A stretch of DNA of 27,959 bases, taken from positions 1 through 27,959 of IMG/VR virus record IMGVR_UViG_3300047550_002610; one strand, 5' to 3'. The stretch comes from a virus. The position numbers and the translations under genes were made by a program. The notes under the pieces are model-generated. The model saw only the letters and a program-made list of their open reading frames with translations. It did not search any database and had not been told where the DNA came from. Of the stretch, positions 1,946 through 11,222 are shown piece by piece. Position 1 is the first letter of the stretch; each line of letters begins with the position of its first letter.

Positions 1946-2210
1946 TTTGCACCCTCGCGGCCAATTCGATGTATCCAATTGCGTCCAACAAGTTATCGTC
2001 CTTATGCCTGTTGCCCTGGCGAATCAATTTCAACAACGCCATCATGATTGCGACATCGCCAGGCGTAAGGCTTTCATTATCCATCATGAAGCCTCTTTGA
2101 AACAAATAACCGTTCCAAGCTTTGCTAATGGCACTTAAATTAACCTTCGGGTCGCCGTAATCTTCGCCGCGTTCGCCAATGATTTTTTCAGCAGCTTCCA
2201 GAATGCTCAC
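1932..2210 (-). CDS. DUF6378-like phage protein
   Basis: A 92-residue protein with ILEAAEKII...RGEDYGDP near the N-terminus, then LTPGDVAIMMALLKLIR and HKDDNLLDAIGYIELA. I recognise this pattern from a small phage family (DUF6378) of unknown function; the conserved acidic and His residues in helical segments recall MazG-like pyrophosphohydrolases, but that link is only a resemblance. ATG at 2210 overlaps the stop of the zinc-ribbon gene by 4 bp (ATGA). Confidence 0.75.
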   Translation of the reverse strand: MSILEAAEKIIGERGEDYGDPKVNLSAISKAWNGYLFQRGFMMDNESLTPGDVAIMMALLKLIRQGNRHKDDNLLDAIGYIELAARVQNESD

Positions 2211-2551
2211 AATTCACCTCCTTCAATCTGTTTGTCGAGTTCCGCCAATTGCTTTTCCACTTCTTCAGGTGACCGACTGCGCTTGCGCCCGCATCGGCAA
2301 GCGTTGCCGCGAAATAGCGTCCGGTAGAAGTAAAGCTTTTGATTCAGTTCCTTGATTCGCCTGGACTGCGTTACGTTGCGCGTACGCAAACTAAAAAGCA
2401 TTTTCATAACCTCGCTGGTCACGCCACGCGTGGCCACGCACCGCGCGCAGATTGCGCCCCGGTAGCCTGCCAGCTTCCAGCCTGCACCGTGAATGGCGCG
2501 CAGGCATGAAGCGCAAGTTTTGGCTTTTTTAATTTTGCCTTCACGATTCAT
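2207..2551 (-). CDS. Zinc-ribbon protein of unknown function
   Basis: A 114-residue basic protein with a CASC...CARC pair near the N-terminus, predicted to bind one zinc, a helical middle, and CRCGRKRSRSPEEV followed by a charged helix. No family is recognised; a nucleic-acid or protein-binding adaptor would fit. Its ribosome binding site, GGGGA 8 nt before ATG 2551, lies inside the last arm of the palindrome at 2553-2717. Its translation is therefore probably controlled by folding of that leader. Confidence 0.7.
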   Translation of the reverse strand: MNREGKIKKAKTCASCLRAIHGAGWKLAGYRGAICARCVATRGVTSEVMKMLFSLRTRNVTQSRRIKELNQKLYFYRTLFRGNACRCGRKRSRSPEEVEKQLAELDKQIEGGEL

Positions 2552-2552
2552 T

Positions 2553-2717
2553 ATTCTTTTCCCCTATATGTATTAGAATTTTGGGAAAAGAATACATAAG
2601 TTGTTGTGTGTGTTACACTTACACACACAACAACTATACTTGAACACTGTTTATAGTGTTCACTTTTAGGTAAAGTATTCTTTTCCCAAAAAACAATTAC
2701 ATATAAGGGAAAAGAAT
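2553..2717. repeat. 165-bp nested palindrome with two inner hairpins
   Basis: Two 41-bp units, 2553-2593 and 2677-2717, are near reverse complements of each other, and each is itself an inverted repeat (ATTCTTTTCCC, 19 bp, GGGAAAAGAAT). The outer arms 2553-2572 and 2698-2717 match at 19 of 20 positions; 2579-2595 and 2675-2691 match at all 17. Between the units lie a hairpin with 15-bp perfect arms (2599-2613, 2621-2635) and one with 8-bp arms (2641-2648, 2655-2662). The GGGGAAAAG at the left end is the ribosome binding site of the zinc-ribbon gene, so alternative pairings could hide or free it. A replication origin, an antitermination RNA or a translational switch would all fit. Confidence 0.85.
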
Positions 2718-2755
2718 CGGGAATAGAATAAACACTTTTAACTAAACTACGCAAA

Positions 2756-3010
2756 CTACCCATTATTAACTTTTACCTCGATCGTTTTTTGGTGCATATA
2801 AAGCGCGCCGCGCTTGTTTTCTTTGCCCTTGTCGGCGAACTGAAACAAGAATTTGTAATGGCAGACGCGGCACAATTGCGCGTTTTCCTCTACCTCAAAC
2901 GTCATGGAAATCATCACCGGAAAAGAAAGCCCGTAATTGCGCGTAGACAGCTTAAGACCGTCCAATGGTCCATCCACCAATTCAAAGCTATAACGTTCAA
3001 TAGAAGCCAA
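2756..3010 (-). CDS. Small phage protein of unknown function
   Basis: An 84-residue protein with YSFELVDGPLDG near its start, a beta-rich middle, a CRVC pair and a Lys-rich end. It resembles small uncharacterised phage proteins found near replication genes; no function can be given. The frame is open further up to 3187, but that would overlap the upstream gene by 110 bp. TTG at 3010 is preceded by AGGA at 8 nt and is preferred. A GTG near 3055 is the alternative. The palindrome begins 39 bp after its stop. Confidence 0.65.
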   Translation of the reverse strand: MASIERYSFELVDGPLDGLKLSTRNYGLSFPVMISMTFEVEENAQLCRVCHYKFLFQFADKGKENKRGALYMHQKTIEVKVNNG

Positions 3011-3077
3011 ATAATGCGTCCTGCGTGGCCTTGTTTGCGGTGGCGCAGGAAGTTGCACCACCGCGCGAATTACAAGG

Positions 3078-3674
3078 CTAGAAAGGGTAAATAACTTCTT
3101 GCGGGGCCTTCCATGTTTGCCCGTCAAGAACGAAGTCATTAGCGGTAAATTTGCCATCCGAAAGCATCTGCTGCGCTTCCATGGCATCCATTACCTTGGT
3201 CTTCCCTGCAATGCTAACCATATAGGTCGTTGGCGCTTGATTGCCAAGAGTCGCTTGCTTTGGCGCTGGCGGTGGCGGTGGAACAGAAGGAACAGCAGGC
3301 GCGCTAGAACTTGCTGGCATACACAAAATCACGCGCGTTTTTGTTCCTGTTTTGTTATAACCAACCGTTATCTGATAGGTCTTTCCAATCAAGTTTTGAA
3401 CGTCGATATCTTCACCGCCGATAATTTTCCTTCCGAGCATTTCGCTCAGCATCTTGCCGAGTCCGTTTCCGGTGGTAAGCGTCTGCGGCGTGAAGCGGCT
3501 GGTAATCTTTCCAGCGTGTTCGCCTTCGGCAACTTCAAATTCCCAAGCCCAGCTTGGCTTGGAATCTGGAAACTGTTGGCTTGGTGGCATTTCCTTGTAC
3601 CCGACCAACTTCGCTCGGTAGCTTCCAACCGGCACATCAAACTTGCTCATTTGTTCAATAGCCTTCAATAACAT
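3078..3674 (-). CDS. DUF669-like replication-module protein with C-terminal GYF-like domain
   Basis: A 198-residue protein in two parts. Residues 10-118 (VPVGSYRAKLVGYKE, WAWEFEVAEGEHAG, GLGKMLSEMLGRK, DVQNLIGKTY) resemble phage DUF669-type proteins, which sit beside helicases and are thought to act as single-strand-binding or helicase-loading factors. A Pro-rich linker (about 128-140) leads to a DUF4339/GYF_2-like domain ending in DGQTWKAPQEV. ATG at 3674 has AGGAGG at 8 nt and overlaps the primase-helicase gene by 20 bp. A role in replication is inferred from domain and neighbours. Confidence 0.75.
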   Translation of the reverse strand: MLLKAIEQMSKFDVPVGSYRAKLVGYKEMPPSQQFPDSKPSWAWEFEVAEGEHAGKITSRFTPQTLTTGNGLGKMLSEMLGRKIIGGEDIDVQNLIGKTYQITVGYNKTGTKTRVILCMPASSSAPAVPSVPPPPPAPKQATLGNQAPTTYMVSIAGKTKVMDAMEAQQMLSDGKFTANDFVLDGQTWKAPQEVIYPF

Positions 3675-5775
3675 GATCCTGACCTCCTGAGAGTAAATCT
3701 TTTTGACCTAGTTCCATGGATACCTTTTTAAATTTCTGAGGGTTTCCGCGGGTTCCCTTGGTGCGGTCCACCTGGACTTCCCCGCCTGCGATAAGTTTTT
3801 TTAATTCCTTTGTTACTTTTTCTGTTCTGAGTCCGCATCCCTGGCGTATTTGTTCCAAAGTTTTCCATTCGTGATTTGATAACGCTTCATGAATGGAATC
3901 AAGGTCTTCGATTTGCTTTACTTCCTTGCAATCGCCAAGCAATTCATAATCATTGCCGTTCAACTCAATGACTAATTCCGCTGGCGTTTCCTGCCAGCGT
4001 CCTGAACCCTTGAGAATTCTTTGGTTCTTTTTGTCGACTCCAAAACCTCCTTCTACCTTGTCAAAATCAAGGATGATGTCAAACCTGCCCACTATCGCCC
4101 CGGAGCCACGCGCCCCGGTGAAGTTCGTTCCGCCGCTTTTGCGCTGGTGATGAATCACCATAACGCAAAGGTCAGATTGTTCTGTGAGGATGTCCAAGGC
4201 ATCAATTGCCTGCGTTGCTTGCACCGCGTCGTTTTCATCGGCAACAGGCCAGTAGCGCGAAAGCGTGTCGATGACCAAAATCTTGTGTCCGTTGCGTTCC
4301 ATATATCGCCGCGCGCGTCCGAGCCATTGTTTCCAAGACTCAAGGCAATAAGCGTTCTTTACTTTTGCCTGAACCAGCGCATGGTAATGACCGATTAATT
4401 CAAAGCGAGCGATTCGCGACGACCAGCTATTAGGATGTTCTTCGCTGGCATACAGGACTTTTGCCTGTTGCACCTTGTAACCGATAAAGGTATCGCCCTG
4501 CTCAAACGCCTTAAGCAAAGCCGCCATCAAGGTTGTCTTGCCGATTTTCGGAAGCGCGGTAATCAGCGTCTTTTGCCCAGGACAAAGAAAGCCGAACCAG
4601 TACCATTCATCAGGACTTAAAGGCGGTTTAAGCTTGTCAAAGGTAATGGCAAAATCGTCATCGCTTTCCTCATCTTCTCCCTTTAAGTATCGTTCAATCC
4701 CGTTTTGTTTCTTTGTGGCAACCGCGTCGATTACAATGGCTTGTTGCTGCCTGTAGCTCGGCAACGCGTTGGGCATATTGATTAAGTTTGCAATCTCTTC
4801 CGGTGTTCCGTAACCGAGTTCCGAAAGGCGCTTGCTGGCGCTTCTCAGGTCGTTGCCACAATGAACCAGCGCATAGGCGGAAAACTTGGAATAGCTTTGC
4901 CCTTCCTGAAAAGGCCATGCGTTCGATGAAAAAACAAAAAGCCTGTCGCCTGACTTTTCTCCGCGGCAATAACCGCTCGTAGCGCTAATGCCGAAATCCT
5001 TTTTGTCCGGCCTGCGCCAATGAATGACATTTTCGCGCCGCCTTGAAATTGTCCAGCCTAGCGGCAAAAGGATATCTTCCCAGCTTGAGCGCTGGTTGTA
5101 ATCGTCGCCGGGTCTTAAACGGCCATCATTATACGGTGGAATGACCGTATCAATTGCGTGTTCCTTGTAGTCTGGAAGGCTGGATTTCTCGTCTTGAAGG
5201 CGAGCCAGGGAAACAAACAGATCATATATCTCAGGATCAATTGGTTCCGGTTGCTTTCCCTCAGCCATCCAGCCTTCGTTTTCCCAATGGTACTGAAGGC
5301 CAAGCGGATGACATTCCGGCGGGCAACCTGGCGCGAGGCAATAGCCGCCTTCCGCCTTGGTTTCAATCAGAGTTTTGCCGCCTGCGTTCTTTGCCAGCTT
5401 TGCGCATTTCGCAGAAATTCCCCAGCAGTAAACGTGGCGCCCGCCGCTCGGTGTCTGCACGATGGGCAGCTTATCTAGTTCAAATAGCAAGCCTTCCTGC
5501 GCGCAATCTTCGCGCCATTGGATGTAGGCTTCCGCGCTATCGAAATCGAGAATAGTGAGTTTTCCGGAAACCGCTCCGCCAAGAATGGCAACACCGTTGA
5601 GCGAGCCTTCAGGATACCAAGACTCCAGTTGGGCGAATTGCGGGCGTTCGTGCTGAAACTTGGTCCAGCTACCGACCTCCCGCGCTGGAGCCTTGGTGCC
5701 GTTAGGCGCAACGGCAATGACCGAAAGGCCTTTCTCCAGATATCTTTTTGCGCAGTCCTTCGCGTTGTGGCTCAT
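3655..5775 (-). CDS. Fused primase-polymerase / RepA-like AAA+ helicase
   Basis: A 706-residue replication protein. The N-terminal 200 residues are an archaeo-eukaryotic-type prim-pol domain: KGLSVIAVAPNGTKAP, the metal-binding DFD at 77-79, TPSGGRHVYCW at 108-118 and GGYCLAPG at 143-150. The central domain is a hexameric helicase-type ATPase with Walker A ALPKIGKTT (407-415), Walker B ILVIDTLSRYW (499-509) and VMVIHHQRKSGG with an arginine-rich GARGSGAI segment. The last 80 residues include a winged-helix stretch (IHEAL..W.TLEQI..GCGL). It probably makes primers and unwinds DNA at the phage origin. The methyltransferase gene ends 2 bp upstream. Confidence 0.9.
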   Translation of the reverse strand: MSHNAKDCAKRYLEKGLSVIAVAPNGTKAPAREVGSWTKFQHERPQFAQLESWYPEGSLNGVAILGGAVSGKLTILDFDSAEAYIQWREDCAQEGLLFELDKLPIVQTPSGGRHVYCWGISAKCAKLAKNAGGKTLIETKAEGGYCLAPGCPPECHPLGLQYHWENEGWMAEGKQPEPIDPEIYDLFVSLARLQDEKSSLPDYKEHAIDTVIPPYNDGRLRPGDDYNQRSSWEDILLPLGWTISRRRENVIHWRRPDKKDFGISATSGYCRGEKSGDRLFVFSSNAWPFQEGQSYSKFSAYALVHCGNDLRSASKRLSELGYGTPEEIANLINMPNALPSYRQQQAIVIDAVATKKQNGIERYLKGEDEESDDDFAITFDKLKPPLSPDEWYWFGFLCPGQKTLITALPKIGKTTLMAALLKAFEQGDTFIGYKVQQAKVLYASEEHPNSWSSRIARFELIGHYHALVQAKVKNAYCLESWKQWLGRARRYMERNGHKILVIDTLSRYWPVADENDAVQATQAIDALDILTEQSDLCVMVIHHQRKSGGTNFTGARGSGAIVGRFDIILDFDKVEGGFGVDKKNQRILKGSGRWQETPAELVIELNGNDYELLGDCKEVKQIEDLDSIHEALSNHEWKTLEQIRQGCGLRTEKVTKELKKLIAGGEVQVDRTKGTRGNPQKFKKVSMELGQKDLLSGGQDHVIEGY

Positions 5776-5777
5776 TA

Positions 5778-6737
5778 TTACATCGACTCCACTTTTGCTA
5801 TTCTCTCACCTATCCACCGCATCACCGGAACCGCCATGCTGTTGCCTAGCGCCTTATAGCGTGGGCCGTCTGGGCAATCGCTGGCGGGTTTCTTGCGCCA
5901 CGGAATTTCGGTATATCGGTCTGGGAACCCTTGCAGGCGTTCACATTCAACTGGTGTTAGGCGGCGCACTTGCGAGAATGTCGCAATTAAATCAGTTGCG
6001 TCCTTGTAATATCTAGTTTTCAGGCAACTTGCTGTTTGGTCGTTTTTGTACTCGCCAAAAGCAATCATTCTTAAGGCATAATTCCCATTAGCTATTTGGT
6101 CTGCGTCCACGCCACGGCTTCCAAAGCCGCTTGTAATGGTTGCGGCAACACTTTCCCTCTTTTCGAGGCTCGGCGCAGTATTCCGGCACACGCTCTCGGA
6201 CTCAAAAAGAACCTTGGCGGCACATTCTGCGTTTCCAAAGTATCCGACAACGAACACACGACGGCGTCTTTGGGCCACTCCGAACCATTGTGCGTCCAAC
6301 ACTCGGTAGGCGAACCCATACCCCAGCTTGACCAGCGACCCGAGGAAGGTTCCAAAATCCCGTCCTCTGTTACTTGACAGAACACCTGGGACATTTTCCC
6401 AGACAAGCCATCGAGGCCGAAAACGTTCAGCGATTGCAAGGTATGTAAGCATGAGGTTACCCCTTGAGTCTTTGAGTCCTTGCCGCAATCCTGCGACGCT
6501 GAATGATTGGCAGGGGGTTCCTCCGACCAAAACGTTGACTGGTTCATGTAGATTCCATTCCTTAAATTTCGTCATGTCGCCAAAGTTTTTAACTTGCGGA
6601 TAATGATGCGCCAATACGGCGCATGGAAACGGTTCAACTTCGCTGAACCCGACAGGCTTCCAGCCCATGTGATGCCAGGCAAAAGTTGCAGCTTCAATGC
6701 CAGAACAGACAGAAAGATAATTCACTTTAAAAGCCAA
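5778..6737 (-). CDS. dcm: DNA (cytosine-5) methyltransferase
   Basis: A complete 319-residue C5 methyltransferase. Motif I is LSVCSGIEA, motif IV GGTPCQSFS with the catalytic Cys, motif VI WENVPG, motif VIII QRRRRVFVVG, then RRLTPVECERLQGFP of the target-recognition side and motif X ALGNSMAVPV. It transfers a methyl group from AdoMet to cytosine C5, probably to protect phage DNA from host restriction; no partner restriction gene is seen. The target region is short, and the recognition site cannot be predicted. The start is TTG at 6737 with GGAAG upstream, overlapping the preceding gene by 11 bp. Confidence 0.93.
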   Translation of the reverse strand: MAFKVNYLSVCSGIEAATFAWHHMGWKPVGFSEVEPFPCAVLAHHYPQVKNFGDMTKFKEWNLHEPVNVLVGGTPCQSFSVAGLRQGLKDSRGNLMLTYLAIAERFRPRWLVWENVPGVLSSNRGRDFGTFLGSLVKLGYGFAYRVLDAQWFGVAQRRRRVFVVGYFGNAECAAKVLFESESVCRNTAPSLEKRESVAATITSGFGSRGVDADQIANGNYALRMIAFGEYKNDQTASCLKTRYYKDATDLIATFSQVRRLTPVECERLQGFPDRYTEIPWRKKPASDCPDGPRYKALGNSMAVPVMRWIGERIAKVESM

Positions 6738-7487: not shown

Positions 7488-7961
7488 TTACGCCTCCTCG
7501 CTCGCTGGCGGATAAGGTTGGCCGCGGTCGGCAAATTCCTGCCGTCTTTCGAGGTCATCCTGCCACACCATAAAGATTGCGTGTTCGGCGCTGCCTGCTT
7601 TGCACCAAGTGTTTACGCTGTGCGCGCGCCTAAAGTATTCCCACTCCGCAGGCTTCTCGCCTTCGCCGCATGGAAAATGTTTGGTTGCTTTTATCAGAAG
7701 CTTGCCATGCTTTAATTTGCCGTCTTCTTGGGTCGGAAAAAGACCGCGAATATCCACGTCGACAAAAGCATGATTGCAAACGGTGTCGTATCGGATCCCA
7801 GAAACATAAGGTCGAATAAACGATGGCAAGCTTTCCATCGTCCTTTGAATGAAACGCAATTGGGTGCATTTTTCTTTTTGATCTTCAGCTTGCCCCAAGG
7901 AAAGAATCCGCTCAAGCGTTTCCGAAATTTCGTTGCCAGCCAATTTTGGTTCAGCCTGCAT
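7488..7961 (-). CDS. Phage protein of unknown function
   Basis: A 157-residue protein with an N-terminal helix (ETLERILSLGQAEDQKEK), a central beta-rich part (YVSGIRYDTVCNHAFVDVDIRGLF, KLLIKATKHFPCGEGEKP) and a C-terminal WQDDLERRQEF helix. The start is ATG at 7961, with AAGGAGG at 6 nt; the frame opens at an upstream TTG, but the SD decides for the ATG. It overlaps the end of csrA by 11 bp and is probably translated with it. No family recognised. Confidence 0.65.
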   Translation of the reverse strand: MQAEPKLAGNEISETLERILSLGQAEDQKEKCTQLRFIQRTMESLPSFIRPYVSGIRYDTVCNHAFVDVDIRGLFPTQEDGKLKHGKLLIKATKHFPCGEGEKPAEWEYFRRAHSVNTWCKAGSAEHAIFMVWQDDLERRQEFADRGQPYPPASEEA

Positions 7962-8142
7962 GAGCAACCTCCTTGCGGGTTGCCGCGCTTAAAAGTTCCT
8001 CGCGAAAGATTTGAATGTTTTTTGGCGCGCTGAATCCAAGCTTTGCGCGCGTTGTTTCTGTGGAAACAAGCGTTATGGTTATCGGGCCATCGCTTGTAAT
8101 TATGACAACTTTTTCTTCGTGCCTCCGATTTACTATCAACAC
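7951..8142 (-). CDS. csrA: CsrA/RsmA-family RNA-binding translational regulator
   Basis: A 63-residue protein matching CsrA throughout: LIVNRRHEEKVVI at the start (compare LILTRRVGE), a strand ITITLV, then AKLGFSAPKNIQIFREEL, which includes the conserved G-x-x-APK..I.REE core that forms the RNA-binding surface with the first strand. CsrA dimers bind GGA motifs near ribosome binding sites and change translation or mRNA decay. GTG at 8142, with AAGGAGG at 8 nt, gives the canonical length; an upstream TTG-type opening at 8196 would add 18 unrelated residues and lacks this site. The leader upstream is highly structured. Confidence 0.9.
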   Translation of the reverse strand: MLIVNRRHEEKVVIITSDGPITITLVSTETTRAKLGFSAPKNIQIFREELLSAATRKEVAHAG

Positions 8143-8158
8143 TCTTTCATCCTCCTTG

Positions 8159-8230
8159 AAAAAACCGCACGCCTGAAAAAGGAACCGCTCCTTCAACCTC
8201 TGGGTCGGACTGATTACCCTGGCGTGCGGT
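8159..8230 (-). promoter_or_regulatory. csrA leader hairpin, attenuator-like
   Basis: On the minus strand ACCGCACGCC (8230-8221) pairs perfectly with GGCGTGCGGT (8173-8164). The stem is followed at once by a run of T residues (to 8159), then C and AAGGAGG, the csrA ribosome binding site. Inside the 47-nt loop, AAGGA and TCCTT (8179-8193) form a second small hairpin. GGA triplets, the CsrA recognition core, occur in the loop and in the ribosome binding site. This has the form of an intrinsic terminator placed to control csrA, perhaps by CsrA itself. Confidence 0.6.
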
Positions 8231-10672: not shown

Positions 10673-10716
10673 GAAAGTGTTGATTTTCCGTACTGGTACG
10701 GAAATTTTACACTTTC
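10673..10716. promoter_or_regulatory. Compound palindrome upstream of int
   Basis: A 44-bp symmetric element centred at 10694.5: GAAAGTGT (10673-10680) mirrors ACACTTTC (10709-10716), and TTTCCGTAC (10685-10693) mirrors GTACGGAAA (10696-10704), with only TG between. It holds the only inverted pair of the TTCCGTAC array and lies 67 bp before the int start. It may bind the array protein as a dimer and control int transcription. Confidence 0.6.
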
Positions 10717-10735
10717 AAAATCGTCGTAAGTCCAA

Positions 10736-10777
10736 TCGGGGATACAGGATTTGAACCTGCGACCTCTTGCACCCCAA
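10736..10777 (-). other. attP: attP core: 3' half of a proline-type tRNA gene
   Basis: The minus strand reads TTGGGGT of an anticodon loop, GCAAG (3' anticodon stem), AGGTC, T arm GCAGG/TTCAAAT/CCTGT (10760-10744), acceptor strand ATCCCCG (10743-10737) and discriminator A (10736). There is no D arm, 5' anticodon strand or 5' acceptor strand, so it is not a working tRNA gene. The loop fits tRNA-Pro with anticodon GGG. Integrating phages carry such 3' tRNA halves as the attachment core so that the host tRNA is restored on insertion. Confidence 0.82.
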
Positions 10778-10861
10778 TGCCTTTTTTCCGTACAAGACCA
10801 ATCTTCGGAAATGCCTATTTTACAAGCGTTTGGTGATCATTTTTAGGTTTTAATTTACCTC

Positions 10862-10886
10862 AAAAAACATGGTTGTTTTTAACCAT
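10862..10886 (-). terminator. Candidate weak terminator in the attachment region
   Basis: On the minus strand ATGGTT (10886-10881) and AACCAT (10874-10869) form a 6-bp stem with a 6-nt loop, followed by G and six T (10867-10862). The stem is AT-rich. It is placed to stop late transcripts that have passed the zinc-finger gene before they reach int. Confidence 0.35.
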
Positions 10887-11126
10887 TTTCCGTACAAAAC
10901 CTTTTGTTTTCATCATTAAAAAACGATGAGAATTTTTTTCCGTACAAAATTCCGTACGTCAAAAAATGACTTCAAAAATGGAATTTTTTTCCGTACAAAA
11001 AAATAAAGAATAACCACGCAGCGTAGTTGAAAAACTTAATTCAACAAATAGTCCTTATTTGCAATAGTTCATAAACGAAGCATTCGTCATTTGGCATAGT
11101 TTAAATTTGCCATCATTGATTATCTC

Positions 11127-11141
11127 GCATTGCAAGAGGTC
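11127..11141 (+). repeat. Inverted partial copy of the tRNA-derived att sequence
   Basis: GCATTGCAAGAGGTC on the plus strand matches the att region on the minus strand (GCATT, then TGCAAGAGGTC, 10780-10761) with four G residues missing. The shared 11-mer TGCAAGAGGTC would be unlikely by chance within 500 bp. It may be a relic of an earlier attachment site or a secondary integrase core site. Confidence 0.45.
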
Positions 11142-11222
11142 ATATTCTCATTTTGAAAAGGATAATTTTATTTTCCGTACGGGATTTTATAATTCCGTAC
11201 GCAATTCCGTACAAGCCTTTTA

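Follow-up and report, generated by a model that had tools for sequence, protein, structure and literature searches.

Genes and inverted repeats at the locus

The window, by which we mean the whole stretch of DNA analysed, is a virus record of 27,959 bases in which nearly all genes are located on the minus strand. Along the direction of transcription, a PrimPol-helicase gene (3655–5775) is followed by an SSB-like gene (3078–3674), a small gene (2756–3187), a nested palindrome (referred to as the element hereafter), and a zinc-ribbon gene (2207–2551), past which the order continues with DUF6378, HNH, RusA, and phosphoesterase genes. The element lies 938 bp (0.94 kb) downstream of the PrimPol gene, beyond the SSB-like gene and one further gene. 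The G+C content of the region 2552–2755 is 29%, as compared with 50% for the whole window, and the G+C skew across the window has no turning point at 2.6 kb. The zinc-ribbon protein gave no match in Pfam and PHROG. A sub-threshold DUF1580 match, the sole pointer to the host, suggests the phylum Planctomycetota. The features considered below are as follows.

3655–5775, minus strand: PrimPol-helicase gene (Prim-Pol + AAA_25; Pfam PF09250, E = 7.8e-14, and PF13481, E = 2.2e-21), the proposed initiator
3658–4008, minus strand: C-terminal part of PrimPol, a probable winged helix-turn-helix (wHTH) and the proposed reader of the repeated word (co-variation with the words; AlphaFold)
3078–3674, minus strand: conserved gene, putatively SSB-like, that separates PrimPol from the element (aligned with the L085 relative at 45% identity; position kept in relatives)
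2551–2763, minus strand: 70-codon ORF enclosing the palindrome and overlapping the genes on both sides
2546–2724, no strand assigned: entire nested palindrome, the proposed replication origin
2719–2729, plus strand: fifth word copy, GGGAATAGAAT, with one mismatch
2707–2717, plus strand: word copy a1 (GGGAAAAGAAT, exact match), outer arm of unit 1; equivalent copy with equal spacing in L165 and L175
2677–2687, minus strand: word copy a2, inner arm of unit 1, 30 nt from a1
2641–2662, no strand assigned: inner hairpin with an 8-bp perfect stem; equivalent hairpin in most relatives
2599–2635, no strand assigned: inner hairpin with a 15-bp perfect stem; equivalent hairpin in all relatives
2583–2593, plus strand: word copy b1, inner arm of unit 2, 94 nt from a2
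2553–2563, minus strand: word copy b2, outer arm of unit 2, whose GGGG is a possible Shine-Dalgarno sequence of the zinc-ribbon gene
2207–2551, minus strand: zinc-ribbon protein gene, directly downstream of the element

The word GGGAAAAGAAT has exactly four perfect copies in the 27,959 bases, all within 2553–2717 and two in each direction, as the initial annotation had stated. The two 41-nt hairpin units that it had described (each 11 + 19 + 11 nt) were also found, as was the one large stem, in which long-range arms of 50 nt with 84% pairing, 79 nt apart, enclose two perfect hairpins. Sixteen of the window's 20 perfect 11-nt inverted-repeat pairs fall in the element, and about two such pairs are expected in the entire window. 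The folding energy of the element as DNA is −50.6 kcal/mol, as compared with −13.7 ± 2.5 kcal/mol for shuffled sequences (z = −14.6), and the corresponding z for RNA is −10.8. The long-range form (−81) is more stable by about 24 kcal/mol than the form with local hairpins only (−57), so that the two states of the palindrome are unbalanced. In Rfam, only sub-threshold matches were obtained for the element.

Elsewhere in the window, a probable attP is located at 10686–11212, upstream of the integrase gene. It contains a 43-nt stretch resembling a tRNA 3′ end (10738–10780), which is surrounded by nine copies of TTCCGTAC and one of GTACGGAA, likely to be integrase arm sites. In a host search, the tRNA-like core was absent from 392 Planctomycetota genomes.

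The element in related phages

Searches of viral contigs with the window's zinc-ribbon, PrimPol, or SSB-like protein singly found no relatives. A PrimPol alignment built with planctomycete homologues gave the relatives L085–L091, whose PrimPol proteins are 42–43% identical over the full length to that of the window, and an SSB alignment gave L165–L175, some of which are the same contigs as L085–L091. The gene order in these relatives matches that in the window, the element being located between the SSB-like and zinc-ribbon genes. In most of them, it immediately precedes the zinc-ribbon gene and folds into a single long stem with hairpins inside; L165 (the same contig as L085), for example, has 47-nt arms (91%) that are 83 nt apart. 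The arm symmetry exceeds all 1000 dinucleotide resamplings in eight of the nine members, L170 being the weak member, and exceeds nearly all synonymous-codon shuffles in most members.

Several word types were distinguished: ATTCTTTTCCC in the window, ATTCNGTTCCC in L165 and L175, a degenerate form of the latter in L166 and L172, and CATTWATCC in L167, L170, and L174. Within their 9.5-kb loci, L165 and L175 have no copies of their words outside the element. The copies face > < > <, and their start-to-start spacing of 30-94-30 is identical in the window, L165, and L175, while L167 and L174, with unrelated words, share 31-96-31. This preservation of spacing while the sequence changes argues for a protein-DNA geometry. 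The extra word copy is placed elsewhere in relatives: it adjoins a2 in L165, L173, and L175. RNAalifold on the sequence alignment gave nothing usable, since this alignment is not a structural one and the words vary from phage to phage.

The long inverted repeats and their A+T-richness, together with one similar hairpin in another planctomycete prophage, might recall a mobile hairpin element (MITE or REP-like) that was inserted in the phage. However, the element occupies the same site in all relatives and its words differ between phages; moreover, the 392 Planctomycetota genomes hold no copies beyond chance-level matches, and none was found in INPHARED phages. The mobile-hairpin reading is thus largely refuted, and we regard it as extremely improbable.

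The prophage hairpin just mentioned is a single 12-bp hairpin with the same arms (ATTCTTTTCCCC/GGGGAAAAGAAT), which overlaps a start codon in the Planctomycetota prophage L021 (6161–6196, equal to L009 2459–2494); its match to the window's word is probably a coincidence. Other DNA-pattern matches to this word in viral contigs are mostly inside coding sequences. The Ruminococcus MAG CAMNMO (L010–L018, L020) carries a dispersed repeat, unrelated to the phage, of which there are at least 11 copies in the genome; it contains the hairpin TATTCTTTTCCCCCGCC...GGCGGGGGAAAAGAATA or a variant of it. Another nested palindrome (GGGGGAAAAGAATTTCCCCC ... GGGGAAATTCTTTTCCCC) was found at 2820–2934 of L041, an unrelated viral contig, where it separates two genes. 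Two further features of the relatives are as follows. One is a long array of G+C-rich decamer-like repeats (GGCnnGGC) in L087 (8341–8657), L090, and L175, located between the PrimPol/SSB-like genes and the element. Another is that homologues of a CsrA-like protein encoded in the window (7951–8196; PF02599, E = 8e-11) are similarly placed in L085, L087, and L091.

Co-variation of the words and the C-terminal half of PrimPol

The words change in concert within one phage. The partner of this change can be sought by comparing group I (L086, L091, L173) with group II (L087, L174), between which the words differ. The PrimPol proteins of the two groups are 92–100% identical over the first 300 columns and 40–65% identical in the half comprising the helicase and the wHTH. 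The SSB-like genes of the two groups are 90–97% identical, and the zinc-ribbon genes are 89–96% identical in the closest pairs; in L173 and L174, the zinc proteins are 96% identical and the words are different. The C-terminal half of PrimPol and the element are thus two islands that differ together, with similar genes between and after them. Among 64 loci, word sharing tracks the identity of the C-terminal part (partial r = 0.60, permutation p = 0.0005), the corresponding value for the N-terminal part being 0.11.

The putative recognition helix and wing in this part are visibly different: they are QRRETVIKQL and GTRGSKKKFR in group I, QRQAFVRKHL and GGRGDKKRWR in group II, and LRTEKVTKEL and GTRGNPQKFK in the window. 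AlphaFold gave a core of two helices and two strands (pLDDT about 70 in the core and 56.6 overall), whose structural matches are weak and mostly to winged-helix domains. A wHTH at the PrimPol C-terminus is therefore probable but weakly predicted. In view of the strong co-variation, the C-terminal domain of the proposed initiator helicase is probably the reader of the words. The upstream genes, the zinc-ribbon gene, the SSB-like gene, and CsrA were also considered as readers and were rejected, since the word type is not reflected in how similar these genes are.

An open reading frame through the element

The element lies within a reading frame (2551–2763) that overlaps the stop of the preceding gene (ATGGGTAG) and the start of the zinc-ribbon gene (TAATG). 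An ORF of 65–66 codons is located directly upstream of the zinc-ribbon gene in the relatives whose sequence reaches there, and it is preceded by a strong Shine-Dalgarno sequence in relatives. This frame is open in all nine members examined, in which the other forward frames hold 2–11 stops. An untranslated leader is ruled out by this conserved ORF overlapping both neighbours. In most informative pairs, dN is about 0.5–0.8 of dS; it is higher in the pair L166–L172, which has very few changes. From L172 to L173, the second half of the ORF switches frame, and the ORF is still open and ends at the zinc-ribbon start; the symmetry of the palindrome is kept across this change. These patterns suggest that selection on the ORF may act on its being translated through more than on its peptide, and the peptide could matter too, given that the ORF is conserved.

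Such a conserved ORF, with its dN/dS and with arms that change in concert, might also be expected if the palindrome were a functionless by-product of mutation bias in a small membrane-protein gene, template switching having perfected quasi-palindromes. The exact spacing, the symmetry beyond synonymous-codon shuffles in most members, its persistence when the C-terminal half is shifted in frame between L172 and L173, and the tracking of PrimPol by the words all speak against this explanation, to which we give hardly any weight.

RNA or DNA

The initial annotation had interpreted the palindrome as a two-state RNA switch over the ribosome binding site. In its fuller form, local hairpins and the long stem would control translation of the zinc-ribbon gene, and the stem would be melted by translation of the upstream ORF, acting as a leader. 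This fits with the facts that both local and long-range pairing of the word copies is available in most phages, that an invariably open ORF, with a strong Shine-Dalgarno sequence in relatives, ends at the zinc-ribbon start codon, and that copy b2 is near the ribosome site. Among the outer-stem mismatches of nine elements, however, G-U and A-C are equally frequent (seven each, with 43 others), and the coding strand of the element folds no better overall than its complement; these equalities speak for a DNA element, the members being few and not independent. The covariation sought in relatives was seen in part: compensatory changes occur, and the G-U tolerance of a transcribed strand was not seen. 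In addition, the words track the C-terminal half of PrimPol and not the zinc-ribbon gene, as in L173 and L174, and the long-range form dominates. We thus find the RNA switch unsupported and quite unlikely. Because the last word is near the start of the zinc-ribbon gene, there may still be a side effect on its translation. As for a CsrA dimer bridging the GGA cores, which had also been proposed, the GGA motifs lie in stems, and not in hairpin loops as in a CsrA-regulated leader, and near-identical CsrA genes occur in relatives with different words, both of which argue against it.

Inverted-word clusters behind PrimPol genes

The occurrence of inverted words was examined in 55 non-redundant PrimPol loci. 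In 40 of them, the strongest inverted-8-mer signal is located within −20 to +300 of the PrimPol stop, as compared with 1.9 expected. The binomial p of about 1e-46 is optimistic, as the choice of interval followed an initial inspection of overlapping loci; the magnitude of the effect is beyond doubt. At other ORF ends in the same loci, used as a control, the count was 4 of 234. Each cluster behind PrimPol consists of a phage-specific word repeated in both orientations. In 15 of the 55 loci, the top cluster has another position, and the window's clade is among these exceptions, with its top signal at +1439 to +2226, at or near the homologous element. That the element of this clade corresponds to the sites behind other PrimPol genes is supported by its kind and not by homology. 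Four named phages were also checked: the Arthrobacter phages RootBeer and Eileen have a cluster at about +465, that of Eileen being inside an annotated ORF, and no cluster was found in Shambre1 and phi40:1.

Short two-way words at a fixed spacing are typical of protein sites, so that a transcription regulator's operators, or a site for packaging or partition, may be considered instead of an origin. The window's word is, however, confined to the element, and those of the relatives are likewise confined within their 9.5-kb loci; the co-variation with a replication protein and the position behind PrimPol genes in general are also at variance with such sites, which we therefore judge very unlikely.

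Proposed origin and comparison with known systems

The element has symmetry, synteny, and a conserved geometry, its words co-vary with the C-terminal half of PrimPol, and inverted words lie behind PrimPol genes in general. The synteny, geometry, co-variation, and position favour the DNA origin that the initial annotation had raised as a possibility, and on these comparative grounds the element is most likely a phage DNA replication origin, probably read by the PrimPol-helicase. From the same patterns, we infer binding, opening or unwinding, and priming by PrimPol at the element, and the reason for the ORF, along the following lines. A word of about 11 bp in four main copies (> < > <) would form two 41-bp units about 94 bp apart, between which an A+T-rich core could form two hairpins. 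The PrimPol-helicase would bind the words through its C-terminal winged-helix domain, by which hexameric helicase would be brought onto each unit; the core would then be opened or extruded, and the primase domain would begin synthesis where the strands are exposed. In most PrimPol-helicase phages, the origin would be directly behind the PrimPol gene, and in the window's clade it would have moved about 1–2 kb downstream. The short ORF around it probably stays open so that translation and transcription continue into the zinc-ribbon gene.

In the crenarchaeal plasmid pRN1, a 100-nt stem-loop behind a PrimPol-helicase-wHTH gene is needed for replication, its structure being conserved and its sequence not, and a similar stem-loop was proposed for the Bordetella phage BIP-1 (PMC4234260). 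The statement in the initial annotation that no named element was known to have this layout is reasonable, although the stem-loop origin of pRN1 comes close to it as a precedent (PMC4234260). The present element resembles it in being a large stem-loop DNA element of about 100–165 nt downstream of a PrimPol-helicase gene, with structure conserved while sequence varies and with a C-terminal winged helix that is here weakly predicted. It differs in that its stem is built from a repeated word in the order > < > <, that the site is 0.94 kb away from the PrimPol gene and inside an ORF, and that the helicase is AAA_25 (RecA-like), not superfamily 3; the system may therefore work like the pRN1 group without being a strict member of it.

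The SaPI Rep protein reads iterons directly downstream through its C-terminal domain (PMC7581432). The likeness is that an initiator helicase is combined with short iterons read by a C-terminal domain, which is inferred here, and that the origin is directly downstream of the helicase gene, as is the general case among the PrimPol phages. As in iteron origins, several copies of a replicon-specific word are confined to the proposed origin. The difference is that Rep and the primase are usually separate proteins in SaPIs, whereas the present primase is part of a fusion protein and the words are arranged as a nested palindrome. The element would thus join the pRN1 and SaPI descriptions, as a stem-loop made of iterons.

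The RSF1010 system differs in that it has three separate proteins and in that its iterons and hairpins are separate sequences, whereas here the words themselves form the hairpins. It is similar in that, at ssiA/ssiB with RepA, RepB′, and RepC, stem-loops adjoin iterons and the primase starts at the stem-loops (PMC4234260); its helicase is hexameric. The P4 alpha protein and ori share with the present case a primase, a helicase, and an origin-reading winged helix in one protein, and repeated sites; the P4 primase is, however, of the Toprim type, and a nested palindrome of this layout is not described there (PMC4234260).

The pRN1 origin was reported to lack iterons, and the bound motifs were left unidentified in that work (PMC4234260). 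A wider reading of our results can be offered tentatively, at somewhat less than an even chance. In the window's clade, an origin and a translated gene of 65–70 codons would occupy the same DNA, with the frame kept open even across a frame change, and the nested palindrome would be initiator-specific and would move between phages together with its matched partner, the helicase/winged-helix half of PrimPol about 1–2 kb away. Iteron origins and the stem-loop origins of PrimPol replicons would then coincide, with iterons making up the stem-loop, and an origin would be hidden within a translated ORF. As a rule, the strongest inverted-word cluster behind the PrimPol gene gives a candidate origin and initiator word in most of the 55 phages, which are mostly uncultured. 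The pattern also predicts which protein domain reads the word, so that specificity swaps and origin annotation become testable.

Further sites of this kind were noticed. In the Planctomycetota genomes L079, L080, and L082, inverted-word clusters (CGGACATG, GACCGG, and TGTCAAC) occur directly behind PrimPol-AAA_25 genes; these are candidate prophage or plasmid origins, and the C-termini of the PrimPol proteins carry a weakly predicted helix-turn-helix. In L113, the word repeated downstream of the PrimPol stop at 6618 is TTATCCACAG, which is DnaA-box-like, and therefore this phage may use the host DnaA at the same kind of site.
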